From NCBI RefSeq assembly GCF_014640075.1, contig NZ_BMGG01000004.1:195048-259047 (forward strand): a DNA stretch of 64,000 bases. The letters are read 5' to 3'. This DNA comes from Chelatococcus reniformis (GTDB lineage Bacteria > Pseudomonadota > Alphaproteobacteria > Rhizobiales > Beijerinckiaceae). The position numbers were made by a program, and so were the translations under genes. Shown here in pieces: positions 6,637 to 53,616 of this stretch; positions within the stretch are counted from its first letter, which is position 1, and the number at the start of each line of letters is the position of its first letter. The notes beneath the pieces were generated by a model. The model searched no databases, was not told the DNA's origin, and was given only the letters and a program-made list of their open reading frames with translations.

Positions 6637-6739
6637 TAGAGCATTTCCGCGTTTCTTAGAATCGCGAAAATGCACTATCTATTTGTTTTACCGCCTTTTC
6701 TTCACGCGCACCGGCGTCCGCTTCGCTCGAAGCGCTCTA
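6637..6739. repeat. RIME-like intergenic element, copy 1
   Basis: A 103-base element bounded by TAGAGC and GCTCTA, matching three others at 22437, 50332 and 53513. It is the most diverged copy: the first hairpin's right arm is AAAATGCAC rather than GAAATGCTC. The right-hand GCTCTA, read on the minus strand, gives the TAG stop of the fumarylacetoacetase gene. Size and two-palindrome structure resemble the RIME elements described in rhizobia. Confidence 0.8.
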
Positions 6740-8047
6740 GCGTGCGGCGAGCACCATGCCGCAACACTCGCCGAAGCCGATCGGTACGAAGCCGTCACGG
6801 CGCGCGTGAGCGCGCAGGATCACCTCGTCCCCATCCTCCAGGTAGCGGCGCTCCTCGCCGGTGACGAGGCGCATCGGTGCCCTGCCGCCCTGGGTCATCT
6901 CCAGCAGGCTCCCCAGCCCCGTCGGCTCCGGGGCCGAGATCGTGCCGGAGCCGAGGAAATCCCCGGGCCGGAGGTTGCAGCCGTTGCTGGTCTGGTGGGC
7001 CACCAGCTGCGCCGCCGTCCAATACATGTGGCGGGTGCTGCTCTGGCTCAGGCGGACCGGCGCGTGGCCGCTCTCGCGCAGCAGGGGCGTCGTCAGATAA
7101 ACCTCGAGATCGAGGGCCAGCGCCCCGGTCTGCTGGTCATCCGCGTCGGCAAGGTAAGGCAGTGGCGCCGGATCGCTCGCGGGGCGCGGCGGTTGCGCTG
7201 TGCGGAACGGGGCGAGCGCCTCGGGCGTGATCACCCAGGGCGACAGTGTGCTGCCGAAGTTCTTGGCCAGGAAGGGCCCGAGCGGCTGGTATTCCCAGGC
7301 CTGGATGTCGCGCGCCGACCAGTCGTTGAGCAGGCAGAAGCCGGCGATGTGCTCGCCGGCCTCGGCAACGGGAATGGGCGAGCCCAGGGCATTGCCGGGG
7401 CCGATCCAGATGCCGAGCTCCAGCTCGAAGTCCAGGTTGCGGCAGGGGCCGAAGCTTGGTGCGGCCTCGTCCGGCGCCTTGCGCTGGCCGTGGGGCCGAT
7501 GCAGTGCGGTCCCTGACGGCACCAGCGAGGAGGTGCGCCCGTGATAGCCGATCGGCACGTATTTGTAGTTCGGCAGCAGCGGGTTGTCCGGGCGGAACAC
7601 CCTGCCGACGTTGGTGGCGTGATGGATGCCGACGTAAAAGTCGGTGTAGTCGCCGACGCGGGCTGGCAGATGCAGCGTGCAAGGGGCGGCCTCATGCAGC
7701 AGGGGCCGCAACTGGTCGGCGGCACCGCTGCCGTCGGTCAGGAGCTCGCTCAGGCGCGCCCGTAGCGCCCGCCGCGGCCCGGCGCCGAGGGCGAAGAGCC
7801 CGTTCAGGGCCGCGCCGGCGGCCGCCTGCGCGGCGCGCGCCGTCTCACCGGAGAGCAGCCCGGTGTCGGCCAGGGCCTCAAGGTCGAGGATACTGTCGCC
7901 GATGGCGACGCCGGCCCGCGGGCCGCTGTCGTCCGGGGGCGTGAAGATGCCGAGCGGCAGGTTCTGCACAGGGAAGTCCGGATGGCCGTCGGCCGACGCC
8001 ACCCAGCTGCGGCGGCCCGGATCGTGGGTCTCGTCGATCTGAGCCAT
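6737..8047 (-). CDS. fahA: Fumarylacetoacetase
   Basis: Cleaves 4-fumarylacetoacetate to fumarate and acetoacetate, the last step of homogentisate breakdown in the cytoplasm. The 436-residue protein matches the full-length enzyme: N-terminal SH3-like part (FPVQNLPLGIF), then catalytic signatures DYTDFYVGIHHATNVG (metal Asp and catalytic His), LELGIWIG (metal Glu) and LNDWSARDIQAWEYQPLG. The ATG at 8047 lies 2 bases after the hmgA stop, so the two genes are probably translationally coupled. It is the last gene of the operon, and its TAG stop is provided by the RIME-like element. Confidence 0.96.
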   Translation of the reverse strand: MAQIDETHDPGRRSWVASADGHPDFPVQNLPLGIFTPPDDSGPRAGVAIGDSILDLEALADTGLLSGETARAAQAAAGAALNGLFALGAGPRRALRARLSELLTDGSGAADQLRPLLHEAAPCTLHLPARVGDYTDFYVGIHHATNVGRVFRPDNPLLPNYKYVPIGYHGRTSSLVPSGTALHRPHGQRKAPDEAAPSFGPCRNLDFELELGIWIGPGNALGSPIPVAEAGEHIAGFCLLNDWSARDIQAWEYQPLGPFLAKNFGSTLSPWVITPEALAPFRTAQPPRPASDPAPLPYLADADDQQTGALALDLEVYLTTPLLRESGHAPVRLSQSSTRHMYWTAAQLVAHQTSNGCNLRPGDFLGSGTISAPEPTGLGSLLEMTQGGRAPMRLVTGEERRYLEDGDEVILRAHARRDGFVPIGFGECCGMVLAAR

Positions 8048-8049
8048 GG

Positions 8050-9399
8050 TCAGGGCCGGGTCGGATCGAAGGTCTTGCGCAGCTCCTGGCCGTAGCGGCC
8101 ATAGCCCGTCTGCCGCTCGGCGGCGTTGGCCGCGAACGCCGTCACCCGCTGGGGAAAGCGCGTCTCGAACATGAAGGCCATCGTGCCCTCCAGCTTGTGC
8201 GGCTTGAGCTCGACGGAGCTCGCCTTCTCGAAGGCCTCCACGTCGGGCCCGTGCGGCAGCAGTGTGTTGTGCAGCGAGATGCCGCCCGGCACGAAGCCGT
8301 GGGGCTTGGCGTCGTATTGGCCGTAGACCAGCCCCATGAACTCGCTCATCACGTTCATGTGGTACCAGGGGGGCCGGAAGGTATTCTCCGCCACCAGCCA
8401 GCGGTCGCAGAAGACGACGAAGTCGACGTTGGCGGTGCCGGGCGTCTCCGACGGCGACGTCAGCACCGTGAAGATGGACGGGTCGGCGTGGTCGTAGAGG
8501 ACCGGTCCGACCGGCGAATAGCGGCGCAGGTCGTATTTGTAGGGGTAATAGTTGCCGTGCCAGGCGACGACGTCGAGCGGCGAATGCGCGATGTCGGCAG
8601 CCCATAGCGCGCCGCTCCATTTCACGAACAGGCGCGAGGGGGCGTCCCGGTCCTCGTAGGCGGCGACGGGTGTCAGGAAATCGCGCTGGTTGGCCAGGCA
8701 GTTGGCGCCGATGGGGCCGCGCTCGGGCAAGGTGAAGGCGCCGCCGTAGTTCTCGCAGATGTAGCCGCGCGCCGGGCCGCGCTTGAGCTCGACGCGCAGT
8801 TTGACGCCGCGCGGGATGACGGCGATCTCGCCGGGCTCGATGTCGATGCGGCCGAACTCGGTAGCGAGCCGCAGCTCGCCCTCCTGCGGCACGAACAGCA
8901 TCTCGCCGTCGGCATTGTAGAAATAGTCGTTCTCCATGGAGCGCGTCACCAGGTAGACGTGCGCGCCCATGCCGGCGTGGCTGCCGGCGTCGCCGGCGGT
9001 CGTAATGGTCCGCACGGCGTCGATGAAGCTTAGCGCCTCGTTGGGGATGGGGAAGGGATCCCAGCGCAGCGGCGCGATCGGGGTGTCCACCTCGGCCGCC
9101 GGCGCCGTGCGCCAGAGGCCCTTGTCGACCTTGCGGAACTCGCCCCAGTGGGCGACCGTCGGCCGGATCCGGTAGAGCCATGAGCGCTCGTTGGTGGTGC
9201 GCGGTGCCGTGAACGGCGAGCCCGACAGTTGCTCGGCATAGAGGCCGTAGGGGCAACGCTGCGGCGAGTTGCGGCCGATCGGCAGGGCGCCGGGCAGCGC
9301 CTCCGTCTCGAAGCCATTGCCGAAGCCCGACAGGTATTCGAGGTCATTGCCGCCGGCCGCCGAGCCGGCGGCGAAAGCGGGGCGCACGGTGACGTTCAT
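8050..9399 (-). CDS. hmgA: Homogentisate 1,2-dioxygenase
   Basis: Opens the homogentisate ring to 4-maleylacetoacetate using Fe(II). The 449 residues begin with the family signature [19 protein letters not shown]. The iron-site block is intact: [13 protein letters not shown] followed by [15 protein letters not shown] supplies the His and Glu ligands. I chose the ATG at 9399 (MNVTVRP) because GGAGG lies 5-6 bases upstream; an in-frame start 5 codons earlier has no such site. The gene sits 15 bases after the MBL-fold gene and directly before fahA. Confidence 0.97.
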
Positions 9400-9414
9400 G
9401 GGGGCCTCCAGCAC

Positions 9415-10395
9415 TTACGATCGCGCCTCGGCGGGTTTGGCCGCCTTGGCCTCCTCGAGCGCCTGCCACATCTCGACGTCGCGCTCGGCCGTCCAGATGC
9501 GCGGGTGCTCGATGCCCTTGGCCTCGTCGACGGCGCGGCTCACGTCGAAGGGCATGCAATGGTCGAAGATGACCCAGTGCCCATACTTGGGCCGCATGGC
9601 CTCCATGGCCACGTCGTAGATCTGGTTGAGCGAAGCGCCCTTGGCCACCCCCGCCTTGGCGATGGCGAAGAGGTCAGAGGTGAAGGCGGCCGTGCCGGCG
9701 ATCGCCTCGTCGACTTCGGCACGGCCGATCAGGCTGCGCCCGCGCCCGGGCACCAGCCGCTCGGCGCCGAGCGCCTTGACCGCGGCGAGCGTGGCCGGCC
9801 AGTCGGTGAAGTGGGCGTCGCCGCAATAGGGCGTGGCGCCGAACTCGACGGTGTCGCCGGCGAACAGCACCTTTTCCTTGGGCAGCCACACCACGGTGTC
9901 GCCCGCCGTATGGCTGCGGCCGATGTGGATGATCTGGACTTCGCGGTCGCCCAGCCAGAGGGTCATACGCTTGTGGAAGACGAGGGTGGGCCAGGTGAGG
10001 CCGGGGATGCTCTCCTTGCCGCGGAACAGGCGCGGGAAGCGGCCAATCTCGCTGTCCATGTCCTGCTGGCCGCGCTCGACGATGAGGTCGCGGGTGGCGT
10101 CGGAGGCGATGATCGTGGCGTCCCCGTAGGCCGAGGCGCCGAGGACGCGCACCGCGTGGTAGTGGCTCAGCACCACGTGCCGCACCGGCTTGTCGGTGAC
10201 GGCACCGATGCGCGCCAGCACGTCCTGGGCCATGGCGGGCGTGGCCTGGGCATCGACCACCAGCACGCTGTCGTCGCCGATGACGACGCCGGAATTGGGG
10301 TCACCCTCTGCCGTATAGCCGTAGAGGCCGGGCCCGAGCTCTTCGAACGAGACCTGCTTGTCGGCAAGGTCGGCGGTGCTGGCGAAACCTGACAT
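9415..10395 (-). CDS. MBL-fold metallohydrolase-like protein of the homogentisate operon
   Basis: A 326-residue protein of the metallo-beta-lactamase fold: SGVVIGDDSVLVVDAQAT, then LSHYHAVRVLGAS, GRSHTAGDTVVWLP and LFAGDTVEFG. The usual HxHxDH metal motif is altered to H78-Y-H80-A-V82-R83, so the second metal site has lost its Asp and third His while later His and Asp residues remain. It may bind one metal or be a specialised hydrolase. Its place between maiA and hmgA suggests a role in the same pathway, such as thioester or lactone hydrolysis or repair of a side product; that is inference. ATG at 10395 has AAAGGA upstream. Confidence 0.85.
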   Translation of the reverse strand: MSGFASTADLADKQVSFEELGPGLYGYTAEGDPNSGVVIGDDSVLVVDAQATPAMAQDVLARIGAVTDKPVRHVVLSHYHAVRVLGASAYGDATIIASDATRDLIVERGQQDMDSEIGRFPRLFRGKESIPGLTWPTLVFHKRMTLWLGDREVQIIHIGRSHTAGDTVVWLPKEKVLFAGDTVEFGATPYCGDAHFTDWPATLAAVKALGAERLVPGRGRSLIGRAEVDEAIAGTAAFTSDLFAIAKAGVAKGASLNQIYDVAMEAMRPKYGHWVIFDHCMPFDVSRAVDEAKGIEHPRIWTAERDVEMWQALEEAKAAKPAEARS

Positions 10396-10427
10396 GGTCG
10401 GTCCTTTCAGGGCAGCCGGAGCCGGAT

Positions 10428-11060
10428 CTACTCCGCGTCCGGCTGCCGGTCCGGCGCGGCGGCGGCGAAGGGGGCAAGCGCGTTGCAGGCGGTCTCGGCC
10501 GCCAGCAGGCGCGCAAGGTGCGACAGCTCGCAGCCGAAGCGGCGGGCGTTGTACAGCTGCGGCACCAGGCAGAGGTCCGCCAGCGTCGGCGCCGCGCCGA
10601 AGCAGAACGGCCCCGGGGCGCCGGCGAGCAGCGCCTGGCAGGCGTCGAGCCCCTCGCCGATGACCCAGCTCGCCCAGCCGGTGACCTCCGCATCGGCGAC
10701 GTCGAGCGCGCGCAGGCGCTCCTGCACCTTGAGGTTCTGCACGGGATGGATGTCGCAGGCGATGGCGTGCGCGAAGGCGCGGATGCGGGCGCGCTGCCAG
10801 GCGTCGCCCGGCAGCAATGGCGGATCGGGATGGGTTTCCTCGAGCCACTCGCAGATGGCCAGCGACTGGGTGAGCACGGCGCCGTCGCCGAGCTCGAGCG
10901 CCGGCACCAGGCATTGCGGATTGAGCCGTGCATAGGCCGGCGCCCGCTGGCCACCGTGGCGCAGGTGATGGAAGGCGTGTCCGGTCGCGACCCCCTTCAG
11001 GTTGAGCGCGATCCGCACGCGCCAGGCCGCCGTCGAGCGATAGTAGCCGTGCAGGATCAT
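10428..11060 (-). CDS. maiA: Maleylacetoacetate isomerase (zeta-class GST)
   Basis: Isomerises 4-maleylacetoacetate to 4-fumarylacetoacetate with glutathione, linking HmgA to FahA. The 210-residue protein has the thioredoxin-like domain with YYRSTAAWRVRIALNLKG (glutathione-site region), LVPALELGDGAVLTQSLAI (cis-Pro loop and glutathione-binding Gln-Ser), and the zeta-class helical domain with DIHPVQNLKV. The SSxSWRVRIAL signature is here RSTAAWRVRIAL. ATG at 11060 (MILHGYY) is preceded by GGGAGCGGAG. Length is normal for the family. Confidence 0.95.
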   Translation of the reverse strand: MILHGYYRSTAAWRVRIALNLKGVATGHAFHHLRHGGQRAPAYARLNPQCLVPALELGDGAVLTQSLAICEWLEETHPDPPLLPGDAWQRARIRAFAHAIACDIHPVQNLKVQERLRALDVADAEVTGWASWVIGEGLDACQALLAGAPGPFCFGAAPTLADLCLVPQLYNARRFGCELSHLARLLAAETACNALAPFAAAAPDRQPDAE

Positions 11061-11082
11061 GGCCGTCTCCGCTCCCTTCGCA

Positions 11083-11310
11083 TCAGGCGACGGCGTGCAT
11101 GGCGCGGTCCTCGCCACTCGGGACGAGGCCGCGCCGTGCCAGCGCCATGGCTTCGTCGAGCACGGTCCGGTCGCCGACGTGGTTGGCGAGCAGCAGGACG
11201 AGCTTGGCGTTCACCAGCCGGCTCTGTTCGGCCGTCAGGTCGCGATGGAGGCCGATCAGCGCTTCGTAGAAGCCGTCGGGATCGGCAATGTTGAGCTCGG
11301 TGGTCAGCAT
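11083..11310 (-). CDS. DUF2783 small protein
   Basis: A 75-residue acidic, helical protein (MLTTELNIADPDGFYEALIG) of the DUF2783 type, which I recall as commonly found beside FAD monooxygenase and homogentisate genes in alphaproteobacteria. No catalytic motif or signal peptide is visible. The ATG at 11310 has GAAGAGG just upstream and lies 7 bases after the monooxygenase stop. Its fixed position suggests an accessory role for the monooxygenase, but the function is unknown. Confidence 0.85.
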   Translation of the reverse strand: MLTTELNIADPDGFYEALIGLHRDLTAEQSRLVNAKLVLLLANHVGDRTVLDEAMALARRGLVPSGEDRAMHAVA

Positions 11311-11317
11311 GGCCTCT

Positions 11318-13003
11318 TCACCCCTGTCCGGTGGCGCGCGCCAGCGCCGCCTGTACGGCTTCGCCATGGAACTGCCGCCAGCGCGCACAGACGTGCTGAT
11401 CGGGCCGCAGCAGATAGAACGTCCCGGGCCGGGCGTCGTAGCGGTCGGCCGCGAGACCGGCGGCATCCTCCAGCACGGTCATGCCGTCCAGCGCCGGCAC
11501 CTGGGCGCCGGCCGGCGTCAACACCAGGATGGCGAGCGGCAGCGCGCCGCCGGCCGCGGCCCGGAGCGCCCGCAGCGTCTCGGCCGGCGGCGCATCGGGG
11601 CTGAAGTAGAGCCCGGTGAAGCCGCTGCCGGTCTCACGCAGCAGCCAAGCGTCCCGCCCTGCCGTGCGCACCGGCGCGTCCGCGGCCGGGGCGCCGGGCT
11701 CCATCGCCCCGCTGAACGGGCCCGTGTCAGCGCTGCTGAGCGGCGAGCCGCGATAGGTGCTGGGTGTCGATAGCCTGCCGCTGTTCACCAGCCGCCGTGC
11801 GAAGCCGCAGTCCCGGGCGAGCTCCAGCGTGGCGTCGCGGAACGCGAGGCTCGCCTCGTTCTTCGGGGTGATGAAATCGGTGCTGCGGGTCGAATTGAGG
11901 ATGTTCTCGTCCGCGGCGGCGATGCGCTCGCCGTCGTAACTGTCGAGCAGTGTCTCCGGCGCCAGGCCGCGCAGCACGAGGGCGAGCTTCCAGGCCAGGT
12001 TATCGGCGTCCTGTATGCCGCCGTTGGCGCCGCGGGCGCCGAAGGGCGACACGCCGTGGGCGCTGTCGCCGGCGAACAGCACGCGGCCGTGCCGGAAGCG
12101 GTCCATGCGCAGGCACGAGAAGGTGTAGACGCTCACCCAGTCCAGCTCGAACGCGGCGTCGGGGCCCAAGAGTGCCTGCACCCGCGCAATCACCCGCTCC
12201 GGGTCGCGCTCGATCTCGGGGTCGGCGTCCCACCCGAGCTGGAAGTCGATGCGCCAGATGTCGTCGGGCTGCCGGTGCAGCAGCACCGACTGGCCGCGGT
12301 GGAAGGGCGGATCGAACCAGAACCAGCGCTCGGTCGGCAGGTCGGCCGTCATGCGCACGTCGGCGATGAGGAAACGGTCGCGGAAGGTCTGGCCGGAGCT
12401 CTTCTGGCCGATATGGCCGCGGATGGCGCTGCGCGCGCCGTCGGCGGCGATGAGCCAGTCGCAGCGCAGGCGATAATCGCCCTCCGGCGTGGCGATCTCG
12501 AGCGTGACGCCATCATCGTCCTGGCAGACGCCCGTCACCCTGTTCTTCCAGCGGATCTCCAGGTTGGCGAACTCGGCCGCGCGCTCCAGCAGGTAGCCTT
12601 CCACGACATACTGCTGCAGATTGATGAAGGCCGGCCGCTGGTGACCGGCGTCCGGCTGGAGGTTGAAGCTGTAGACGGGCTCGTCGCGGAAGAAGACCTT
12701 GCCGAGATTCCAGGTGACGCCCTTGTCGACCATCCGCTGGCCGCAGCCGAGCCGGTCGAAGATCTCCAGCGTGCGCTTGGCGAAGCAGATGGCGCGCGAG
12801 CCGGTCGACAAGCGGTCGTCCTCGTCGAGGAGCAGGACCGGGATGCCTTGCCGGGCCAGATCGATGGCTGCGGTGAGGCCCACCGGCCCGCCGCCGACAA
12901 CGACCACCGGATGGCGGGCGGGCCGCGGCGCGTCCTGGTCGGGCGAGCGAGCGTAAGCGAATGTCAGGTTGCGGTAGTCGGGCGCGGACACTGCGCTCCT
13001 CAT
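11318..13003 (-). CDS. FAD-dependent aromatic hydroxylase (UbiH/MhpA-like)
   Basis: First gene of the operon. The 561-residue flavoprotein has the Rossmann FAD motif PVVVVGGGPVGLTAAIDLA, the DG motif LIAADGARSAIRGHIG and the second FAD motif RVLFAGDSAHGVSPFGARG, followed by a thioredoxin-like C-terminal domain as in MhpA-type hydroxylases. It probably uses NAD(P)H and O2 to hydroxylate a phenolic acid. Operon context suggests it makes homogentisate, for example from 3- or 4-hydroxyphenylacetate, but the sequence does not fix the substrate. I chose ATG 13003 (MRSAVSAP), preceded by GGGGAA; a GTG 8 codons upstream is possible. Confidence 0.88.
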   Translation of the reverse strand: MRSAVSAPDYRNLTFAYARSPDQDAPRPARHPVVVVGGGPVGLTAAIDLARQGIPVLLLDEDDRLSTGSRAICFAKRTLEIFDRLGCGQRMVDKGVTWNLGKVFFRDEPVYSFNLQPDAGHQRPAFINLQQYVVEGYLLERAAEFANLEIRWKNRVTGVCQDDDGVTLEIATPEGDYRLRCDWLIAADGARSAIRGHIGQKSSGQTFRDRFLIADVRMTADLPTERWFWFDPPFHRGQSVLLHRQPDDIWRIDFQLGWDADPEIERDPERVIARVQALLGPDAAFELDWVSVYTFSCLRMDRFRHGRVLFAGDSAHGVSPFGARGANGGIQDADNLAWKLALVLRGLAPETLLDSYDGERIAAADENILNSTRSTDFITPKNEASLAFRDATLELARDCGFARRLVNSGRLSTPSTYRGSPLSSADTGPFSGAMEPGAPAADAPVRTAGRDAWLLRETGSGFTGLYFSPDAPPAETLRALRAAAGGALPLAILVLTPAGAQVPALDGMTVLEDAAGLAADRYDARPGTFYLLRPDQHVCARWRQFHGEAVQAALARATGQG

Positions 13004-13075
13004 GGTGCGTTTCCCCGGCCGCGGCACGGATCCGGCCGTTGTCCGCGGCCGGCCTCAATTCGCGCTTGCTACATA

Positions 13076-13102
13076 ATGCGTAATATAGTCTTCTATGCGT
13101 AA
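13076..13102. promoter_or_regulatory. Candidate operator/promoter of the homogentisate operon and iclR
   Basis: The 121-base gap between the divergent operon and iclR holds an AT-rich patch with two direct copies of ATGCGTAA, at 13076-13083 and 13095-13102, 19 bases apart start to start, about two helical turns. Such spacing fits dimer or tetramer binding by the IclR protein encoded next door. No binding data can be inferred; the site is proposed from position and repetition. Confidence 0.5.
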
Positions 13103-13124
13103 GATTGATCCGGGAGAGTAAGCG

Positions 13125-13946: not shown

Positions 13947-14083
13947 AGCGTCCCCGGCAGTCACAAGCTTTCATTGTTGGCAGATCATGGTAGCCACGCG
14001 GCAGCGTGTGCTGCGCGCGTCGGCTGCGGCATGTGAGGTATGCCGCCCGTCGCACGTGGCAGGCGAAGGGATCAGGCTCGCGG

Positions 14084-14620
14084 ATGCAGAAGCGGCAGGT
14101 TGCAGCGCTACCTTACCATAGGAAGAGGGGCGTCAAGATCCTCCTGATCACGTCCAAGGAGACGCGACGGGCGATCATTCCCAAGGGCTGGCCGAAGAAG
14201 AAAAAGAAGGAGCACGCCGCCGCCGCCAAACGGGCGCGCCGCGAGGCCGGCCTCAAGGGCAAAGTCGGCAAGCAGCCCATCGGGGTCTACAGCTACTGGA
14301 AGCGCGGAAAGGGCCATTACGAGCTGTGTGAGGTCGCCGTCTACCCCCTTGCCGTCACCAGGCTCCGCAAGCGCTGGCGCGACATGAAGGATCGCCGCAT
14401 GCGCTGGTTTCCGCCCGACGATGCGGCCCTTCTGATCGACGAGCCGGACCTGAGCACTTTGATCCGTCAGTTCGCCAAGGAGTTTGCCGGGAAGCGGGGC
14501 AAGCCCAAGTCGTCGAAGCCATCCCCAGCGCGCGGTCGAAGTAACGGATCTCGCTCTGAGCGGATCGGGGTCGTCCACCACGGAACGACCAAGGAGCCCA
14601 GCGGTCCACCCACCGCTTGA
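14084..14620 (+). CDS. Nudix-like protein with a degenerate Nudix box
   Basis: 178 residues. The first 130 follow the diphosphoinositol-polyphosphate-type Nudix pattern seen in alphaproteobacteria: QVAALPYH, VKILLITSKETRRAIIPKGW, GKQPIGVYSYWKRGK, YPLAVTRL, MRWFPPDDAALLIDEP. The catalytic REAYEEAGV stretch reads K49-R-A-R-R-E-A-G-L57, so two of the three key glutamates are arginines and only E54 remains. The region is also very Lys/Arg-rich. It is probably not a normal Nudix hydrolase and may be decaying or repurposed, for instance for nucleic-acid or phosphate binding. The start is uncertain: ATG 14084 has a weak ribosome site. The tail after residue 135 is low-complexity. Confidence 0.7.
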   Translation: MQKRQVAALPYHRKRGVKILLITSKETRRAIIPKGWPKKKKKEHAAAAKRARREAGLKGKVGKQPIGVYSYWKRGKGHYELCEVAVYPLAVTRLRKRWRDMKDRRMRWFPPDDAALLIDEPDLSTLIRQFAKEFAGKRGKPKSSKPSPARGRSNGSRSERIGVVHHGTTKEPSGPPTA

Positions 14621-22436: not shown

Positions 22437-22539
22437 TAGAGCATTTCCGCGTTCTTCGAATCGCCGAAATGCTCAATCTGTTTGATTTGTCGCGTTTTCT
22501 TCACGCGAACCGGCGTCCACTTCGCTCGAAAACGCTCTA
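22437..22539. repeat. RIME-like intergenic element, copy 2
   Basis: A 103-base element with two hairpins: GAGCATTTC pairs with GAAATGCTC, and GCGTTTTC pairs with GAAAACGC. On the minus strand its right end gives the TAG stop of the biotin carboxylase. It is flanked on both sides by GGCCGCC (22430-22436 and 22540-22546), which looks like a 7-base target duplication. Confidence 0.85.
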
Positions 22540-23916
22540 GGCCGCCTGCCGGGCCTGTTGCTGCTCGATCTCGGCTTGATGGGCCGTGAGGAAATCGGTG
22601 CTCAAGCGGCCGGCACGGAAGGCGGGGTGGTCGAGCACGGCCCTGAGCCAGCCGACGTTGGTCGTCAGTCCGTCGATGCGCAGATCGCCGAGCGCGCCGA
22701 TCAGCCGGTCGATGGCCTCATCGCGCGAGGCGGCGTGCGCCATCACCTTCATGATCATCGGGTCGTAGAAGGGCGTGACGACCGAGCCCGCGCGGCAGCC
22801 GGTGTCGACACGCACGCCCGGTCCGTGCGGCAGCACGAGGCCGGTGATGGTGCCGGGCGACGGCATGAAGCGCCGCGCGGGATCCTCGGCATAGACGCGC
22901 GCCTCGACGGCGTGACCGTCGTGGCGGATCTGGTCCTGCGTGAGCTCGGCGGCGACGTCCTCGCCGATGGCATGGCGCAACTGGGCCGCCACCAGGTCGA
23001 CGCCGGTGACGAGCTCGGTGGTGCCGTGCTCCACCTGGATACGGGTGTTCATCTCCAGGAAGAAGAAGCCGCCGGTGTCGTCGTCGTAGAGAAATTCGAT
23101 GGTGCCGGCGCCGTCGTAGGCGCAGGAGCCGGCTAGGTCGACGGAGACCTGCGCCATGGCGGCGCGGGTGGTCTCGCCGAGGCCGGGCGCCAGAGCCTCT
23201 TCGATCACTTTCTGGTGGCGGCGCTGCAGCGAGCAGTCACGGTCGAACAGATGCACGGCCCGACCGTCGCCGAAGCCGAACACCTGCACCTCCACGTGCC
23301 GGGCGCGCCGCACGTAGCGCTCGAGATAGACCGCGCCGCTGCCGAACGCCCGCTCGGCCAGGCCACGCGTGGCGGCGATGCCGGCCGCGAGCGCCTCCGG
23401 CGTCTCCACGAGCCGCATGCCGATGCCGCCGCCGCCCGCCGCGGCCTTGATCAGCAGGGGAAAGCCGATGCTGGCCGCCGCGGCGGCGACCGTCGCCTCG
23501 TCCGGCGGCAGCTTGTCGGTCCCCGGCAGCACCGGAACGCCCGCCGCGCGGGCGAGGGCCCGCGCCTGCTCCTTGTCGCCCATCGCGGCGATCGTCTCGG
23601 GCCGCGGCCCGACGAAGACGAGGCCTTCGCGACCGCAGCGGGCCGCAAAGCCGGCGTTCTCCGCCAAAAAGCCGTAGCCCGGATGGATGAGCGTCGCCCC
23701 CGTGTCGCGGGCGGCGGCCAGGATCGCATCCTGGTCGAGATATGATTGCTGGGCGCGCGCAGGCCCTACCCGGCGGGCCTCGTCGGCCAGGGCGACGTGC
23801 GGGGCCTCCGCATCGGTGTCGGAATAGACGGCGACGGTGGCGAGGCCGATCGACCGCGCCGACGACAGGATCCGGCAGGCGATCTCGCCTCGGTTGGCGA
23901 CGAGCAGCTTGTGCAT
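22537..23916 (-). CDS. Biotin carboxylase subunit of an acyl-CoA carboxylase
   Basis: 459 residues, the length of a stand-alone biotin carboxylase with no C-terminal biotinyl domain. It has LLVANRGEIACRI, the Gly-rich ATP loop AAAGGGGIGMRL, biotin/bicarbonate-site residues RDCSLQRRHQKVIEE and EMNTRIQVEHGTTELVTG. It carboxylates biotin on the carrier protein using ATP and bicarbonate. The usual EHPVTE is EHGTTE here. The carrier (25616) and carboxyltransferase (25840) are separate genes upstream with a CoA ligase in between. A palindromic operator precedes the ATG, and the stop lies inside a RIME-like element. Confidence 0.92.
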   Translation of the reverse strand: MHKLLVANRGEIACRILSSARSIGLATVAVYSDTDAEAPHVALADEARRVGPARAQQSYLDQDAILAAARDTGATLIHPGYGFLAENAGFAARCGREGLVFVGPRPETIAAMGDKEQARALARAAGVPVLPGTDKLPPDEATVAAAAASIGFPLLIKAAAGGGGIGMRLVETPEALAAGIAATRGLAERAFGSGAVYLERYVRRARHVEVQVFGFGDGRAVHLFDRDCSLQRRHQKVIEEALAPGLGETTRAAMAQVSVDLAGSCAYDGAGTIEFLYDDDTGGFFFLEMNTRIQVEHGTTELVTGVDLVAAQLRHAIGEDVAAELTQDQIRHDGHAVEARVYAEDPARRFMPSPGTITGLVLPHGPGVRVDTGCRAGSVVTPFYDPMIMKVMAHAASRDEAIDRLIGALGDLRIDGLTTNVGWLRAVLDHPAFRAGRLSTDFLTAHQAEIEQQQARQAA

Positions 23917-28853: not shown

Positions 28854-28858
28854 GGTGC

Positions 28859-44123: not shown

Positions 44124-44134
44124 GGGAGGATGAG

Positions 44135-44632: not shown

Positions 44633-44640
44633 GGGACGCC

Positions 44641-46608: not shown

Positions 46609-47389
46609 GATCGTGGGCTTGCAGCGGGGGGAGGGCCGGGGCGGGGACGTGGTGTTCCGCTCCGACGCGCGAGCCCACACGCTGGCGCTGTCCACCGAGC
46701 GGGGCGCGAGCCTCGGTGTTGAACTGGAGGACGAGGCAGCGCTGGGCGCCGCCGCCGCCGCCCTGGAGCAGGCCGGCTATGGCTGCCGCGAGGCCTCGGC
46801 AGCCGAGTGCGAGCGCCGCTTCGTGCGCCGCGCCCTGATCTGCGCCATCGGCGAGGGCATCGCCGTCGACCTCGTGCTGCGCCCTGCCGTCAGCGGCCGG
46901 CGCTACTTCGGCAGCCGCGATGCCGGCATCACCGGCCTCGCCTGCGTCGGCCTGCGCAGCACCGACCTTGCCCGCGACACGGCGCTGTGGACGGCGCTGC
47001 TGGGCGCCACGGTGAGCGACCGGGCCGGCGAGGTCACTTATCTGGGCTTCGACGAGGCCCATCACCGCATCGCGCTCTATCCGGCTGCCCGGGCCGGCAT
47101 CGTCTACGTCACCTACGCCGTCGAGAGCTTCGATGCGGTGATGCAGAGCCATTACTTCCTCCAGGAGCATCAGGTGCGGGTCCTGCACGGGCCGGGGCGC
47201 GAGGCCGCGTCGGGCCAGGTGTTCGTGCGCTTCCAGGGGCCGGGGGAGCAGATCTTCGCCTACGGCCACGGCATGGCCACCATCGACCGGGGCCGGCACC
47301 GGGCGCGCCAGTTCGCGGCCGAGCCGGGCTCGCTGTGCGCCTGGGGCAGCACGAGCGAGGTGCCCGAGCTCGCCGGTGCGGCCGGATGA
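46523..47389 (+). CDS. Extradiol-dioxygenase-like VOC protein lacking all iron ligands
   Basis: 288 residues with two-domain type I extradiol dioxygenase architecture, similar throughout to its neighbour at 47413. The three positions that bind Fe(II) in the neighbour (H140, H197, E245) are C141 (GLACVGL), Y198 (VTYAVE) and A246 (IFAYGH) here, and the acid-base His of GRH is Glu (GRE). Iron-dependent ring cleavage is therefore not expected. It may be a pseudoenzyme partner, a substrate-binding protein or an isomerase-like enzyme. It has its own strong ribosome site (AAGGAG) and overlaps tetR by 86 bases. Confidence 0.88.
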   Translation: MLDPIRIVQLCYVRLGTDDLEASARFATEIVGLQRGEGRGGDVVFRSDARAHTLALSTERGASLGVELEDEAALGAAAAALEQAGYGCREASAAECERRFVRRALICAIGEGIAVDLVLRPAVSGRRYFGSRDAGITGLACVGLRSTDLARDTALWTALLGATVSDRAGEVTYLGFDEAHHRIALYPAARAGIVYVTYAVESFDAVMQSHYFLQEHQVRVLHGPGREAASGQVFVRFQGPGEQIFAYGHGMATIDRGRHRARQFAAEPGSLCAWGSTSEVPELAGAAG

Positions 47390-47412
47390 GCGCACAGCAA
47401 GGAGACCCTCCG

Positions 47413-48276
47413 ATGATCGAGCTCAAGGACGTCAGCTATGCGCGGCTGGGCGCGCCGGACCTGGAGCAGGCGGAGGCGTTCGCCACCCGCTGCCTCGGTT
47501 TGCAGGTGGCGGAGCGCAGCGCCAAGGCGCTCTACCTGCGCTCCGACGACCGGGCCCATACGCTCTGCTATGTGGAAGGCGATCCGCAGGACCAGACGGT
47601 GGCCTTCGAGATCGATGACGCAGGCCAGCTCGACGCCGCGGCGGGCACGCTGGAGGGGCTCGGCCACGGCGTGCATGCGGGCACGGCCGGCGAGTGCGCG
47701 GCGCGCAAGGTGAAGGCCTTCATCGCCTTCAAGGACCCGACCGGCAACCAGATCGAGCTGGTGGTGCGGCCGGACCGCAGCGGCCGGCGCTACTTCCCGA
47801 CGCGCGATGCCGGCATCACCGGCTTCAGCCACATCGGGCTGAACACCACCGATCCCCGTCGCGACGAGCGGTTCTGGACGCAGGTGTGCAACGCCCGGGT
47901 CAGCGACCGCATCGGCGACATCGCCCTGATGCGGGTGAACGCCATCCACCACACCATGGCGCTGGCGCCGGCCTCGGGGCCGGGCATCCAGCACATCAAC
48001 CACCAGGTGGCCAGCAACGACGACGTGCTGCGCTCGTTCTACCATCTGGCGGAGCAGAACGTGCCGATCGTGTTCGGGCCGGGGCGGCACCCGACCTCGG
48101 GGGCGCGCTTCCTCTACTTCCTCGGGCCCAACAACATGGTGTTCGAATATTCCGTCGGCGTCGACGCGATCGAGGACGAGGCCAGCCACCGCCCCCGCCA
48201 GTTCGGCTTCGAGCCCTCGAGCCTCTGCATGTGGGGGTCCAAGCCGGGCGGCGCGATCCCGCTGCCGCCGTCGTGA
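47413..48276 (+). CDS. Type I extradiol ring-cleavage dioxygenase
   Basis: 287 residues, two VOC modules. The iron ligands are present: H140 in GFSHIGLNTTD, H197 in IQHINHQVASNDDV and E245 in MVFEYS, plus the usual second-shell HH (IHHTMAL) and GRH. Resembles 2,3-dihydroxybiphenyl-1,2-dioxygenase-type enzymes that open catechols beside the two hydroxyls. It should cleave the catechol produced by the SDR at 44641. AGGAG is 9 bases before the ATG. It is the last gene of the operon, followed by REP-like hairpins. Confidence 0.93.
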   Translation: MIELKDVSYARLGAPDLEQAEAFATRCLGLQVAERSAKALYLRSDDRAHTLCYVEGDPQDQTVAFEIDDAGQLDAAAGTLEGLGHGVHAGTAGECAARKVKAFIAFKDPTGNQIELVVRPDRSGRRYFPTRDAGITGFSHIGLNTTDPRRDERFWTQVCNARVSDRIGDIALMRVNAIHHTMALAPASGPGIQHINHQVASNDDVLRSFYHLAEQNVPIVFGPGRHPTSGARFLYFLGPNNMVFEYSVGVDAIEDEASHRPRQFGFEPSSLCMWGSKPGGAIPLPPS

Positions 48277-48328
48277 GGGCGCCGGGGCCGCCCCATCATG
48301 GCCGAGCTTGCCCAGTCGTGCCCTCGCA

Positions 48329-48480
48329 CGTCATGGTCGGGCTGACCCGACCATCCATCCCCTAAGTAAATAAGCTGTAGAGGCCAGCGGACGCTCGCAG
48401 GTTTTCCAAGAAGATGGATGGTCGGGTCAGCCCGACCATGACGTTCGGATGGGTGCGCCGGGTCAAGCCCGGCCATGACG
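48329..48480. repeat. REP-like inverted pair plus a third copy at a convergent junction
   Basis: A 31-base unit at 48329-48359 recurs as its exact reverse complement at 48413-48443, and a third, slightly different copy (CCGGGTCAAGCCCGGCC onward) lies at 48458-48480. They fill the space between the convergent extradiol dioxygenase (stop 48276) and CoA ligase (stop 48498) genes. The outer pair could form one long hairpin in either transcript; probable bidirectional terminator. Confidence 0.85.
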
Positions 48481-48497
48481 GCTCGGAACGTGACCGC

Positions 48498-50150
48498 TCA
48501 GCCCAGCGCCGCGCGCTGCGCCGGGGCGCCGTCGGCGACTGGGGGGCGCCCATAACGCTCCCGCAGCTCGGCCTTCCGGACCTTGCCGGTGGCGGTCATC
48601 GGCAACTCGTCCACGAAGCTCACCGCGTCGGGCACCCACCAGCTGGCCAGCCGCGTCCGCAGGTGGGCAAGGATGTCGTCGGCGCTCGTCTGCGTCTCCA
48701 TACCCGGCCGCAGCACGGCGAGCAGCAGCGGACGCTCCTGCCACCGTGCATGCTCGACGCCGATGACGGCGGCCTGCAGCACGGCCGGATGGTCGAGGGC
48801 GGCATTCTCGACCGTCACGCTGCTGATCCACTCGCCGCCGGACTTGATCACATCCTTGGAACGATCGACGATGTCGATGCTGCCGTCGGGAAAAATGCGG
48901 GCGACGTCGCCGGTCGAGAGCCAGCCCGTGGTCGATGGCGCGGCGTCCTTGTAGTAGCCGGCGGCAACGCAGGGCCCACGCGCCTCCAGGTGTCCCGCCG
49001 CTTCGCCGTCCCACGGCAACTCGGCTCCGTCGTCGTCGAGCAGCCGCAGCTCCGTGCCATAGCCGATCCGGCCCTGGCGCATGCGCCAGACCAGTTGCTC
49101 CTCGGCCGGCCGGGTAGCGGCGCCGGGCGGCAGCGTCGAACGCAAGCCCGCGACCTCCGTCATGCCCCAGACCTGGCCGACCGGAATGCCGAGGGCAGCC
49201 AGTTCGTCCACCAGCTTGCGGGGCGCCTTGCTCCCCGCCACCAGGGCGATGCGCAGCGACGCCGGCCCGGCGCCCCGGCCGTGCCAGTGGTCGGCCAGGC
49301 CGAACCACACGGTGGGCACCGCGGCGGCGGCCGTCACGCCTTCGCCGTCGATGAGCTCGCCGAGGGCCGCGGCCTCGAAATGGCGGCCCGGCAGAACGAG
49401 CTTCTGCCCGTTCATGGGCGCCGTGAACGGCATGAACCAGCCGTTGGCATGGAACAGCGGCGCGATCGGCATCGCCGCCTCGCTGTCGCCCGAGCGCAGC
49501 ACGCCGATCATGTCGGCGGTGCTCATCAGCAGCGCGGCGAGGACGAGCGAGCGATGGGTGTAGACGACGCCCTTGGGTGCTCCGGTGGTGCCGGACGTAT
49601 AGCAGATGGTGGCGGCCTGGCGCTCATCGAACTCCGGCCATTCCGCTTCGTGACTTGCGGCGGCCAGAAGCGCTTCATAGGCGTGGACGTTGGTCAGCGA
49701 CGTCTTGGGCAGATCGCTCGCCGGGTCCATGTAGATCCAGCCGCGCACGCTCGGCAGCGCCGGCGCCAGCCGCTCGGCGAGGGCGAGGGTCGCCGCATCG
49801 ATACAGATCCAGCTGTCCTGCGCGTGGTTGACGATATAGGTGATCGTCTCGTCATAGAGGCGCGGGTTGATCGTGTGCAGCACCGCCCCGATGCCGGGAA
49901 CGCCGTAGAACAGCTCGAAATGGTGGTGGGTGTTCCAGGCCAGCGTGCCGACGCGGTCGCCGCTCGCCACGCCGAGCGATCGAAGGGCCGCCGACAGGCG
50001 CCGGCAGCGCGCATAGGCGTCTCGGTAGGTATAGCGGTGGACCGCGCCTGCGACCGTGCGCGCGACGATGTCCGTCCTTCCGTGAACCGTCGCCGCGTGG
50101 CGCAGAATGCCGCCGACCAGCAACGGTGTGTCCATCATCAGCCCTTGCAC
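48498..50150 (-). CDS. Fatty-acid/aryl-CoA ligase (AMP-forming)
   Basis: 550 residues of the ANL family, medium/long-chain or methylmercaptopropionate-CoA ligase type: N-terminal GLMMDTPLLVGGILRHA, LAWNTHHHFELFYGVPGIG, phosphate loop ICYTSGTTGAPKGVVYTHRS, WGMTEVAG, GDVARIFPDGSIDIVDRSKD, catalytic Lys in TATGKVRKAEL. Converts an acid to its CoA ester. GTG 50150 is preferred (GGGAGG 5 bases upstream, matches the family's N terminus); ATG 50138 is possible. Downstream partner genes are absent; it is transcribed after the SDR at 50433 with a RIME-like element between them. Confidence 0.9.
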   Translation of the reverse strand: MQGLMMDTPLLVGGILRHAATVHGRTDIVARTVAGAVHRYTYRDAYARCRRLSAALRSLGVASGDRVGTLAWNTHHHFELFYGVPGIGAVLHTINPRLYDETITYIVNHAQDSWICIDAATLALAERLAPALPSVRGWIYMDPASDLPKTSLTNVHAYEALLAAASHEAEWPEFDERQAATICYTSGTTGAPKGVVYTHRSLVLAALLMSTADMIGVLRSGDSEAAMPIAPLFHANGWFMPFTAPMNGQKLVLPGRHFEAAALGELIDGEGVTAAAAVPTVWFGLADHWHGRGAGPASLRIALVAGSKAPRKLVDELAALGIPVGQVWGMTEVAGLRSTLPPGAATRPAEEQLVWRMRQGRIGYGTELRLLDDDGAELPWDGEAAGHLEARGPCVAAGYYKDAAPSTTGWLSTGDVARIFPDGSIDIVDRSKDVIKSGGEWISSVTVENAALDHPAVLQAAVIGVEHARWQERPLLLAVLRPGMETQTSADDILAHLRTRLASWWVPDAVSFVDELPMTATGKVRKAELRERYGRPPVADGAPAQRAALG

Positions 50151-50331
50151 GATCGCCTCCCTTGCGTGTTGGCCTTCCGTCCGGGCGTCGTTGCGCCCGG
50201 AGCGCTTCGCAATTGGATGGAGCTCATACAATTGCGAAGACATGCTCCAGTTCTTTGAATCTGGCGCGTTTCTCGGCGATGGGGTGGGTTCCACCCAATC
50301 GTGAAGCGCACCGGCCGGCCGTGCGGCCGCT

Positions 50332-50435
50332 TCGAGCATTTCCGCGTTTCTTTGAATCGCCGAAATGCTCTATCTGTCTGAATTGTCGCGTTTTCTTTAC
50401 GCGAACCGGCGTCCGTTTCGCTCAAAAACGCTCTA
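50332..50435. repeat. RIME-like intergenic element, copy 3
   Basis: A 104-base copy with left end TCGAGC in place of TAGAGC and intact GAGCATTTC/GAAATGCTC stem. The right end GCTCTA, read on the minus strand, is the stop (TAG) of the SDR gene at 50433. Second hairpin arms are GCGTTTT and AAAACGC. Confidence 0.85.
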
Positions 50436-51212
50436 GAACGTGCCCCGGTACGCTCCGCCGTCGATCAGCACGTTCTGCCCGGTGATGTAGGCGGCCTGGA
50501 CGCTGCACAGGAAGGCGCAGGTCGAGCCGAATTCGAGGGGATCGCCGAAGCGGCCGGCGGGGTTGTCGCGCTTGACCTGCGCGACGGTCTCGTCGACCGC
50601 ACGGCCGCGGCTCGCCGCCAGCGCGGCGAGGTTCGATTTCAGCCTGTCGGTGTCGAAGGTGCCCGGCAGCAGATTGTTGATCGTGACGTTGTGCGCGACC
50701 GTCTTGCGGGCGAGGCCCGCGACGAAGCCGGTCAGGCCCGAGCGCGCGCCGTTCGACAGGCCGAGGATGTCGATCGGTTCCTTCACGGCGTGCGAGGTGA
50801 TGTTGACGATGCGGCCGAAGCGCCGGGCGATCATGCCGTCGACCGTCGCCTTGATCAGCTCGATGGGCGAAAGCATGTTGGCGTCGAGGGCCCTGATCCA
50901 GTCCTCCCGCGACCACTTGCGAAAGTCCCCGGGCGGCGGCCCCGCCGCGTTGTTCACGAGGATGTCGGGGTCGGGGCAGGCGGCCAGCGCCTTGGCGCGC
51001 CCCTCGGGCGTGGTGACGTCGGCGGCGACGGTGCGCGGGCGCCGGCCGGCCTGCCGTTCGATGTCATCGGCGGCCTCTTCCAGCGTGGCCGGCGTCCGGG
51101 CCACGATGACGACGTCGCAGCGTTCCTCGGCCAGCGCCATGGCGCTCGCCTTGCCCAGGCCCTTGCTCGCCGCACACACGAGGGCTCTGCGCCCCTCCAG
51201 GCCAAAATTCAT
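50433..51212 (-). CDS. SDR-fold protein lacking the catalytic Tyr and Lys
   Basis: 259 residues with the SDR Rossmann fold (ALVCAASKGLGKASAMAL, NNAAGPPPG, IVNITSHAVK, GQNVLIDGGAYRGTF). The nucleotide loop is AASKGLG instead of GxxxGxG. At the active site Ser140 is present but the YxxxK pair is S153-N-G-A-R157, so normal SDR catalysis is not expected unless Arg and other residues substitute. I recall the SNGARSGLTGF block from other alphaproteobacterial SDRs, so it is probably a conserved variant rather than damage. Stop codon is supplied by the RIME-like element. Confidence 0.85.
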   Translation of the reverse strand: MNFGLEGRRALVCAASKGLGKASAMALAEERCDVVIVARTPATLEEAADDIERQAGRRPRTVAADVTTPEGRAKALAACPDPDILVNNAAGPPPGDFRKWSREDWIRALDANMLSPIELIKATVDGMIARRFGRIVNITSHAVKEPIDILGLSNGARSGLTGFVAGLARKTVAHNVTINNLLPGTFDTDRLKSNLAALAASRGRAVDETVAQVKRDNPAGRFGDPLEFGSTCAFLCSVQAAYITGQNVLIDGGAYRGTF

Positions 51213-51345
51213 CGCTTGTTTCCATCCCTTGTCAGCCGCGTGAAGGCGCCATGGCCGGCGCCGCCAAAGTCGCGCGCCGGCGCCTCGGGCCGGCGGTCGC
51301 CCAGTCTGGAGCTGTTCGCAACTGAGCCGTTGCGTCGAATTAAAA

Positions 51346-51371
51346 GACAGTCCATCCTGCTTGTAAAGAGG
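51346..51371 (+). promoter_or_regulatory. Conserved promoter element B (binding-protein gene)
   Basis: TTAAAAGA precedes CAGTCCA-N6-TTGTAAAGAGG, identical in its fixed bases to element A at 41409-41440. It lies about 90 bases upstream of the binding-protein ATG. It links this gene to the amidohydrolase/Rieske cluster. Confidence 0.7.
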
Positions 51372-51461
51372 GATGCCACGTCCCCGGCCGGTCGCGACGG
51401 TCCGCGCCTGGCGCGCGCCGTGACCTCGCCGCTACGGCAGCCAATCAAGCGGAGGAACCCC

Positions 51462-52670
51462 ATGCGCCATCTCACCGTGATCGCGACCGCATCGCTCTGG
51501 GCGACGGCTGCGCTGGCCGGGCCGACCTACGGTCCAGGCACCAGCGCCACGGAAATCAAGGTCGGACAAACGATCCCCTACAGCGGACCTGCATCAGGCT
51601 TTGGACTCTATGGGCGGGCCTGGACCGCCTATTTCGACATGATCAACAAGAAGGGCGGCATCAACGGGCGTAAGATCACCGTCCTGTCGCTCGACAACGG
51701 CTACAATCCGAGCAAGGCCGTGGAGCAGACACGCAAGCTGGTGGAGGAGGACGATGTCCTGGCCGAGATCGGCACCGTCGGCACCGTGCCGAATGCGGCC
51801 GTGCAGAAGTATATGAACAACAAGAAAGTGCCGCAGGTGCTGATATCGGCCGGCGGCAGCCGCTTCAACGATCCCAAGAACTTTCCCTGGACCGTGCCGT
51901 TCTACCCGACCTTCGACATGGAGGCGAGCGTCTACGCCAAGCACATCCTGGACACGAGGCCGGATGCCAGGATCGGTATCCTCTATCAGAACGACGATTA
52001 CGGCCGCGATTTCCTGAAAGGCTTCAAGGAGACCCTCGGGGCGAAGGTATCGCTGATCGTCGGCGAGCAGAGCTACGCGCTGACCGATCCCACCGTCGAC
52101 TCCCAGGTGCTCGCTTTGCAGAGCGCCGGCGCCACCGTGCTGATGCAGTTCACCACCCCGAAATTTGCCGCCCAGGTGATCCGCAAGGCGCACTCGATCG
52201 GCTGGTCGCCGTCGCAGTACCTCGCCAGCCCGGCGAGTTCCATCCAGGGAACGCTGGTGCCCGCCGGGGTCGCCGCCTCGACCGGCGTGATGACCGCCGT
52301 CTTCCACAAGCAGGTCGGCGACCCGGCCTGGGACAAGGACAAGGATGTCGTCGATTTCCTGGCATTCATGAAGGAGTGGGCGCCGGCGCAGAACGCCTTC
52401 GATGCCATGGCCATCTCGGGCTATCTCAATGCGCAGCTGACCGCCATCGTGCTCGACCGGTGCAAGGACGACCTCAGCCGTGAAAACCTCCTGAAGCAGG
52501 CCACGACGTTGAAGGACGTCTCGCTGCCCATGCTGCTGCCGGGCATCCGGGTGAGCAATACGCCGGGCGACTACCGGCTCTATCACGAGCTGCAACTGGC
52601 GCGCTTCGACGGCACCGGCTGGACGCCTGTCGGTGGACTGATCCGCGTCGAGCCGCCGGCCGGCAACTGA
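51462..52670 (+). CDS. Periplasmic substrate-binding protein (LivK-type, lone gene)
   Basis: 402 residues: signal peptide (MRHLTVIATASLWATAALA|GP), then a type I binding fold (IKVGQTIPYSGPASGFGLYG, GGINGRKITVLSLDNGYNPS, RIGILYQNDDYGRDFLKGF). It belongs to the branch often associated with aromatic-acid uptake in alphaproteobacteria. No permease gene adjoins it; the transporter may be the one at 59798-64000 or encoded elsewhere. GGAGGAACCCC precedes the ATG. Promoter element B suggests co-regulation with the Rieske cluster. Confidence 0.92.
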   Translation: MRHLTVIATASLWATAALAGPTYGPGTSATEIKVGQTIPYSGPASGFGLYGRAWTAYFDMINKKGGINGRKITVLSLDNGYNPSKAVEQTRKLVEEDDVLAEIGTVGTVPNAAVQKYMNNKKVPQVLISAGGSRFNDPKNFPWTVPFYPTFDMEASVYAKHILDTRPDARIGILYQNDDYGRDFLKGFKETLGAKVSLIVGEQSYALTDPTVDSQVLALQSAGATVLMQFTTPKFAAQVIRKAHSIGWSPSQYLASPASSIQGTLVPAGVAASTGVMTAVFHKQVGDPAWDKDKDVVDFLAFMKEWAPAQNAFDAMAISGYLNAQLTAIVLDRCKDDLSRENLLKQATTLKDVSLPMLLPGIRVSNTPGDYRLYHELQLARFDGTGWTPVGGLIRVEPPAGN

Positions 52671-52816
52671 TCGCGCCCGTCGCTTCGGGACGCGCAGGCG
52701 CGAAGACCGCCGCCGGCGCCTCAGGCTCTCGCGAGCCGGGTTTCGAGCAGCTCGTGCAGCCCCTGTCTTTCTCGCGCCACCTGCTATGATCAGCAGCGGG
52801 GAGGGCAGGCAGCGGC

Positions 52817-53515
52817 ATGGCGACCGACGACATCAGATCGCTTCTGGAAACCGATGATTGGTTTCATGGCCTGCCGGAGCCGCTGCGCGGCCTGATCGTG
52901 CAGAAGGCGGTGCTGCGCGACTACGGCGGCGATGCCCTCGTCTTCGCCACCGGCGACCCGCCGACCGGGCAATTCGCGGTGATCTCGGGCGAGATCCGTC
53001 TGGTCTCGCACACCGCCAACGGCAAGCACGTCCTCTTCAGCATCTTCAAGCCGGGCATGTGGTTCGGGCACCTCTCGGTGCTCGACCAGCAGCCGCGCTT
53101 CCAGGATGCGCTGACGGTCGGCCCGACGCGGCTGCTGCTGCTCAGCATGGCCGCCTTCAACGGCATCATCGCTGACGAGCCGCGCTACATCCTCAACTTC
53201 ACGCATCTGCTCTGCCGCCATATCCGCAGCGCCATGGACATGCTGGCCGAGATGAAGACCGCGCCGCTGTCGGCCCGCCTCGCCCATGCGCTGCTCGACA
53301 TGTGCGCCGATGCCGCGCCGCCGCAGCTGCCGGGCTCGCGCATCACGCAGGAGGAGCTCGCCGCGATGATGGGCGCCTCGCGCCAGACCATCAACCGGCT
53401 GCTCCGCGACTGGGAGGACCGGGACCTCATCGGCCTGGAATATGGTCGCGTGATCGTACGCAACCGCACCGTCCTGTCGGCCGTCGCGAGCCACGGCAAC
53501 CTGCCGTTCTCCTAG
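52817..53515 (+). CDS. Crp/Fnr-family transcriptional regulator
   Basis: 232 residues: cyclic-nucleotide-binding-type beta-roll (residues about 20-130, with FAVISGEIRLVSHTANGKHV and GMWFGHLSVLDQQ) and a winged helix-turn-helix (ITQEELAAMMGASRQTINRL) at the C terminus. The N-terminal region lacks the cysteine cluster of Fnr proteins, so oxygen sensing by an iron-sulfur cluster is unlikely. The gene follows the binding-protein gene by 146 bases; a GGGGAGGGCAGGCAGCGGC run precedes the ATG. Its TAG stop lies at the first three bases of a RIME-like element. Confidence 0.93.
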   Translation: MATDDIRSLLETDDWFHGLPEPLRGLIVQKAVLRDYGGDALVFATGDPPTGQFAVISGEIRLVSHTANGKHVLFSIFKPGMWFGHLSVLDQQPRFQDALTVGPTRLLLLSMAAFNGIIADEPRYILNFTHLLCRHIRSAMDMLAEMKTAPLSARLAHALLDMCADAAPPQLPGSRITQEELAAMMGASRQTINRLLRDWEDRDLIGLEYGRVIVRNRTVLSAVASHGNLPFS

Positions 53516-53616
53516 AGCATTCCCGCGTTTCTTCGAATCGCCGAAATGCTCTATCTGTTTGATTTGTCGCGTTTTCTTCACGCGAGCCGGCGTCCACTTC
53601 GCTCGAAAACGCTCTA
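53513..53616. repeat. RIME-like intergenic element, copy 4
   Basis: A 104-base copy with intact ends TAGAGC and GCTCTA and both hairpins (GAGCATTcC/GAAATGCTC and GCGTTTTC/GAAAACGC). Here it is the left-hand TAG that ends the plus-strand crp-like gene, the reverse arrangement of copies 1-3. Confidence 0.85.

Follow-up and report, generated by a model that had tools for sequence, protein, structure and literature searches.

A RIME-type repeat of Chelatococcus reniformis with a probable insertion mode that preserves the stop codons of neighbouring genes

Four copies of the repeat and the genes they abut

The stretch analysed here, 64,000 nucleotides of the Chelatococcus reniformis contig NZ_BMGG01000004.1 (the window), contains four dispersed copies of a short repeat, placed on the plus strand at 6637 to 6739 (copy 1, at 87.5% to the query consensus), 22437 to 22539 (copy 2), 50332 to 50435 (copy 3) and 53513 to 53616 (copy 4), which align over about 104 columns. 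A previous description made from the letters of the window only (the sequence-only reading) had given all four the ends TAGAGC and GCTCTA; this holds except for the left end of copy 3, which is altered to TCGAGC. Each copy carries in a terminal TAG the stop codon of one neighbouring gene, at the right end in copies 1 to 3 and at the left end in copy 4, and on this claim of the same reading open reading frames, coding statistics and NCBIfam matches agree.

On the minus strand, the right end of copy 1 supplies the stop (TAG, 6739 to 6737) of fahA (fumarylacetoacetase, 6737 to 8047, with the start as called by the gene caller), that of copy 2 the TAG of a biotin carboxylase-like gene (22537 to 23916) and that of copy 3 the TAG of an SDR gene (50433 to 51212). 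On the plus strand, the left end of copy 4 is the TAG of a CRP-like regulator gene (52817 to 53515). All four genes are called as coding by a codon-model gene caller. FahA matches TIGR01266 above the cut-off (550 bits, profile positions 1 to 419 of 420) and the biotin carboxylase-like protein spans positions 2 to 447 of the 451 of NF006367, below the cut-off; the SDR and CRP-like genes were identified from their open reading frames together with NCBIfam matches that lie below the family cut-offs. In each of the four proteins, the best NCBIfam profile is matched to within 6 positions of its end.

RIMEs are repeats of about 100-110 bp with two palindromes, present in many copies outside genes; the name stands for Rhizobium-specific intergenic mosaic elements, with the ends TAGAGC and GCTCTA, and the founding description is reportedly that of Osteras in 1995. 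The repeat of the window shares with RIMEs the size, the two palindromes, the terminal hexamers and the high copy number. In copies 2 and 4, the two that were folded, either strand is predicted to form two hairpins, with z values of -2.7 to -5.4 against shuffles, and the proposal of a RIME-like element with two internal hairpins is borne out in size and layout. The difference is that RIMEs are described as intergenic, whereas stop overlap is a feature of the element studied here.

The RIME work of Osteras 1995 is cited by PMC2573895 and PMC2245857, and in the passages available from PMC2573895 rhizobial RIMEs are listed among intergenic repeats of unknown function. No stop-codon rule for RIMEs was found in the literature searched, which consisted of partial texts and did not include the founding paper. 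Rfam gave no match for the element at gathering thresholds.

Copies across the genome and their distance from gene ends

The genome of the window (6.81 Mb in 39 contigs) was sampled over 2.46 Mb (36%), made up of 1.66 Mb of contiguous stretches that include the window (set 1) and of 0.8 Mb of contiguous stretches kept as a held-out set. Matches of at most 86 query bases were dropped from both sets before counting, as were 12 partial rows off full copies in set 1, leaving 74 full copies in set 1 and 27 in the held-out set, 101 in all. In the whole genome, a 19-base end probe allowed up to three mismatches gave 217 + 215 matches, with the inner arm also matching at two mismatches; the genome holds roughly 200 elements by this probe and about 280 by extrapolation from the sample.

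As in RIMEs, no full copy (n=101, sample) lies inside a called gene, the shared stop codon apart, and 54 stand between tandem, 42 between convergent and 5 between divergent genes. Copies exactly at a stop amount to 35/74 in set 1 and 7/27 in the held-out set (p 0.07 for the difference), that is 42/101 pooled, or 48 if a register slip of up to three bases is allowed; without the window's own four the counts are 31/70 in set 1 and 38/97 pooled. The four-of-four overlap put forward by the sequence-only reading does not extend to the genome as a strict rule. At the pooled stop rate it has a probability of 0.027, and is partly luck.

The non-random association with gene 3' ends, which had also been proposed, is upheld. 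In a test matched for target word and gap type, carried out on the 66 copies with an intact TA at both ends and leaving out the 35 of 101 with degenerate ends, 35 stop insertions were observed against 14.6 expected (p<=5e-6). The occupancy of YTAR sites, arranged by distance, is 29/207 at stops, 7/41 at 1-20 nt (a class that contains no register-slip copies), 6/61 at 21-40 nt, 3/185 at 41-100 nt, 11/648 beyond 100 nt and 2/442 where there is no 3' neighbour. Expressed in per cent, about 14% of the sites at stops are occupied, 13% of those in the next 40 nt and less than 2% of those beyond; where a YTAR site lies between divergent genes, or over 40 nt away from a gene 3' end, occupancy is lower by a factor of at least 8.

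Within the favoured zone, stops are occupied no more often than the other YTAR sites up to 40 nt away (29/207 vs 13/102, p 0.86). Specificity for the stop codon is rejected on this ground: the preference is for the zone of 0-40 nt as a whole, in which stops make up two thirds of the YTAR sites and are the commonest kind. Of the two ideas offered earlier, that the element targets the 3' ends of genes or that it is tolerated only there, either is compatible with such a zone, and neither holds for the stop codon as such.

Target site and proposed mode of insertion

The genome has a G+C content of 68%, and TA and CTAG are scarce in it, with 500 CTAG in 1.66 Mb, elements included. In set 1 (n=74) the flanks read C-TA...TA-G in 30 copies, C-TA...TA-A in 11 and T-TA...TA-G in 6. 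In the stop copies (n=42), the third base of the old codon is expected right after the far TA; read in this way, the codon is TAG in 30, TAA in 5 and TAT in 1, and the other 6 have lost or shifted the far TA. We consider it highly probable that the repeat is a non-autonomous miniature transposon of RIME type, about 100 bp long, which duplicates TA and has a stop-preserving mode of insertion.

According to this proposal, the element would insert at TA, preferably in CTAG or YTAR, with duplication of the TA, and would itself supply the first base after TA, in this genome usually a G on both sides, in relatives A, T or G. As the element begins with G, a hit in the TA of a TAG or TAA stop would remake an in-frame TAG (or, with other ends, TAA) at the same codon, the old 3' flank would be shifted about 102 bp downstream, and the protein would be left untouched. 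Insertions inside genes would be purged, as the lack of copies in the called genes of the sample suggests. Beyond such tolerance, the 3' zone may be favoured through retention, with the hairpins as mRNA 3' end, or through a preference of the transposase.

The TA duplication is seen at one clean empty site, and elsewhere the C-TA...TA-G flanks point to it. The fdhA gene of Rhizobium leguminosarum BIHB 1217 (pPR3) is ended by a related repeat in the arrangement C-TA-element-TA-G. R. beringeri TP24 and R. leguminosarum OyaliB, GLR17 and A1 are without the repeat and have a single C-TA, which belongs to a TAG stop, and the fdhA stop of R. bangladeshense is TGA. The target TA thus occurs once in the empty and twice in the filled site, and all six proteins share the last eight residues, -HGEVAKAA. 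The element does not newly provide the stop here, as had been thought, because four relatives without it already have TAG at that place; nor is the C terminus changed between genes with and without it, a comparison the sequence-only reading had called for. That reading had also said that the use of the same TAG by relatives lacking the element would count against it, which is what fdhA shows, in the form of a pre-existing stop and in Rhizobium, not in the window's species.

The repeat occurs in numerous soil bacteria, and further copies from other organisms were compared. Plasmid pXAUT01 of Xanthobacter autotrophicus (L203:2899-3104) bears two copies in direct tandem which share the junction TA and sit between convergent RES and helicase genes, the two outer TAGs being the stops of these genes. 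The pair is missing from all eight relatives' plasmids compared, the helicases of the 7 relatives translated have the same -AA terminus, and the site before insertion was presumably CCTAAGC, with both stops on one TA. In five of five further Rhizobium copies, picked since a coding sequence lay under the match and with four 'hypothetical protein' rows having a coding sequence left out, the coding sequence as annotated by others closes with a TAG that coincides exactly with the repeat's end. L317, a related repeat of identical layout, has matches in 328 plasmid records, 309 being from Rhizobium or Sinorhizobium; the 60 rows listed contain many that are one site in several strains and many without a coding sequence, and no rate is claimed from them. 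Rhizobium plasmid matches to the query reach 80.6-84.5% over 56-62% of its length (20 of 50 records listed), and other plasmid copies, for example of Agrobacterium vitis, Bosea and Bradyrhizobium, lie outside genes and share no stop.

In a related genus (g6), copies were taken from the top of the match lists of three genomes (25 of 27 matches in G007, 9 of 33 in G060 and 8 of 36 in G061, two locus-edge copies being dropped). The element ends are mostly TAT/TAA in G007, TAG/TAA in G060 and TAA/TAA in G061, and 13 of the 42 copies supply a stop (8/25, 2/9 and 3/8, respectively), all by the 3' arm. All 8 stops of G007 come from the TAA/TGA end and none in the sample from the TAT end; in one further G007 copy the gene stop is a TAG two bases inside a TATAGC end. 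These end letters are compatible with an element that gives the third base of the stop.

Stop codons that come from repeats are already known from the pneumococcal BOX, and the insertion mechanism proposed here fits the one clean empty site. In the passages available from Croucher 2011 (PMC3049150), the BOX repeat of Streptococcus pneumoniae encodes the stop in 36/58 overlapping coding sequences, with no strong evidence of truncation, and is over-represented between convergent genes; the host is unrelated, the likeness is one of description, and no stop-preserving insertion mechanism was found in those passages. Bru-RS1 and Bru-RS2 of Brucella, palindromic repeats of 103-106 bp (PMC10800456, in part), are likewise likened by description, in approximate size, palindromes and the TA/YTAR target of IS711, which appears to duplicate the TA of YTAR and reportedly prefers Bru-RS (PMC2266754, in part). 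They differ in being described there as a landing site of IS711, not as an insertion into stop codons. RUP of S. pneumoniae is a non-autonomous repeat of about 100 bp with TA-containing targets (PMC2229807), and MITEPsy1 of Pseudomonas syringae, also non-autonomous and of about 100 bp, inserts at CTAG/YTAA (PMC3189936), with a 4 nt duplication and other ends than the present element; the passages available on RUP and MITEPsy1 gave no stop-codon bias.

Explanations for the place behind genes

The alternative that survives best, plausible though we would not favour it, is tolerance only, with random insertion at YTAR, loss of the copies at harmful sites such as genes and promoters, and nothing else. 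The empty called genes and the scarcity of copies between divergent genes (5/101) are as it predicts, and Croucher 2011 argues likewise for pneumococcal repeats (PMC3049150, passages available), but stops remain over-used after target type and gap orientation are matched, and the bias in convergent gaps strains it. There, near sites (0-40 nt from a gene end) are occupied in 20/91 cases and far sites in 3/135 (odds ratio 12, p 1.7e-6).

The same gaps bear on a second explanation, which we offer tentatively: that the element is kept behind genes for its hairpins, which would terminate transcription or give the mRNA a 3' end that serves stability or processing, the overlap with the stop being a consequence. 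Convergent gaps have no promoters to spare and still show the clustering near gene ends, although the contrast weakens in short ones (native gaps up to 300 bp, 18/76 vs 1/24, p 0.04; up to 200 bp, 16/68 vs 0/10, p 0.11) and is not significant in the held-out set alone (3/29 near vs 2/67 far, p 0.16). Both strands of the two folded copies fold better than nearly all shuffles. A consensus scan for intrinsic terminators (a G+C-rich stem followed by a T run), which covered 49000 to 55000, gave three sites in all and none in copies 3 and 4, the two that it covered.

The orientation of the arms is another point for a 3'-end role. At exact stops the arm facing the gene is more often of the AAAACGC type (29/42, or 29:13, p 0.02), as it is in 13/13 cases in g6. 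By set, the ratio is 25:10 in set 1 and 4:3 in the held-out set, against 27:27 at non-stop copies, and the held-out set does not repeat the preference. Moreover, the favoured arm is the one without a T-rich linker after it, and in G007 the other arm could not give a stop anyway. In a wider and equally speculative form, stop-preserving repeats of RIME type across many Hyphomicrobiales might append a two-hairpin mRNA 3' end to genes, the copies within 40 nt being kept for 3'-end work. It is conceivable, at about the same low confidence, that their ends are built in such a way that a TA stop, single or in the form of two overlapping convergent ones, is rewritten to TAG or TAA.

Rather unlikely is a preference of the transposition machinery for gene 3' ends (stop or terminator context, or local DNA structure) over other TA sites. 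It would account for the eight- to tenfold occupancy at 0-40 nt from gene ends at equal target type, and IS711 likewise favours single sites among many YTAR for a reason left unexplained in the passages available from PMC2266754. However, the flank profiles of the 35 stop and 31 non-stop copies are alike, with no clear consensus beyond YTAR.

Concerning the proteins, NCBIfam profiles were scanned with 30 of the 42 whose stop is exactly at an element, and 24 gave a match; 18 of these come to within 15 positions of the best profile's end, and 6 end at least 19 positions short of it (3 of the 6 having no more than weak partial matches). Insertion within coding sequences that made new, earlier stops, for which speak these 6 and the fact that any in-frame TA would yield TAG, is mostly rejected and very improbable, since out-of-frame insertions would put stops deep in elements and none of the 45 gene stops inside elements in the sample is there (offset from the element end 0 in 42, 1 in 2 and 2 in 1), and FdhA, FahA, UrtD, the SDR and the pXAUT01 helicase stop where their families do.

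Several points weigh against the TA-duplicating, stop-preserving transposon. Gene ends in the sample were taken from a codon-model gene caller, and the held-out 800 kb have, besides the lower stop rate, a weaker zone effect (near 5/93 vs far 6/467, odds ratio 4.4, p 0.023). The one clean, near-identical empty site compared is in Rhizobium and not in the window's species, and there the far TA is followed by G when the site is filled and by C or T when it is empty, a difference silent in the last codon for which one substitution must be assumed. Two genomes of the same genus (G001 and G002, about 65% at the nucleotide level) are too diverged for empty sites, the SDR gene excepted; its homologues there, at 52% identity, have the same last residue position and in either genome a TGA stop, which at such a distance would neither support nor exclude a former TA stop. 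The RES protein of pXAUT01 is three residues longer than in 5 translated relatives, and the 5' arm in G060 and G061, able to supply a stop, does so in 0/5 cases. To the 6 proteins that end short are added some that reach the profile's end and have tails past it, so that small changes are not excluded. In the window's own genome, a search of two families (3 DDE_3 and 5 DUF4096 hits) gave no transposase with matching ends, and none of the inverted repeats sought at these 8 loci ends like the element.

Beside DDE_3/DUF4096 transposase hits at L303:2063-2878 (contig C20 of the window's genome, G000), an inverted repeat, CTAGAGGCTGTTAT, occurs about 816 bp apart; it is possibly an insertion sequence with GAG ends in a CTA context, and as such a lead to the mobiliser. 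In the sample, TAGAGC/GCTCTA pairs with a spacing of 0.5-3.5 kb, considered as an autonomous partner, looked chance-like by eye. Short TAGAGC...GCTCTA inverted repeats unlike this element were met at L110:17387-17501, G000 C3:274712-274748 and G000 C3:312905-313010. Of four such short inverted repeats found, three also supply the stop of a called gene, and other repeat families may follow the same stop habit.

The simple insertion rule proposed here would explain where many repeats sit and why they are harmless there, and also why annotated genes overlap repeats by exactly three bases. What it leaves as a residue, the eight- to tenfold excess in the 40 nt that follow genes, could mean that mRNA 3' ends are formed by repeats; if true, scores to hundreds of genes per genome would end in a domesticated mobile 3' untranslated region.

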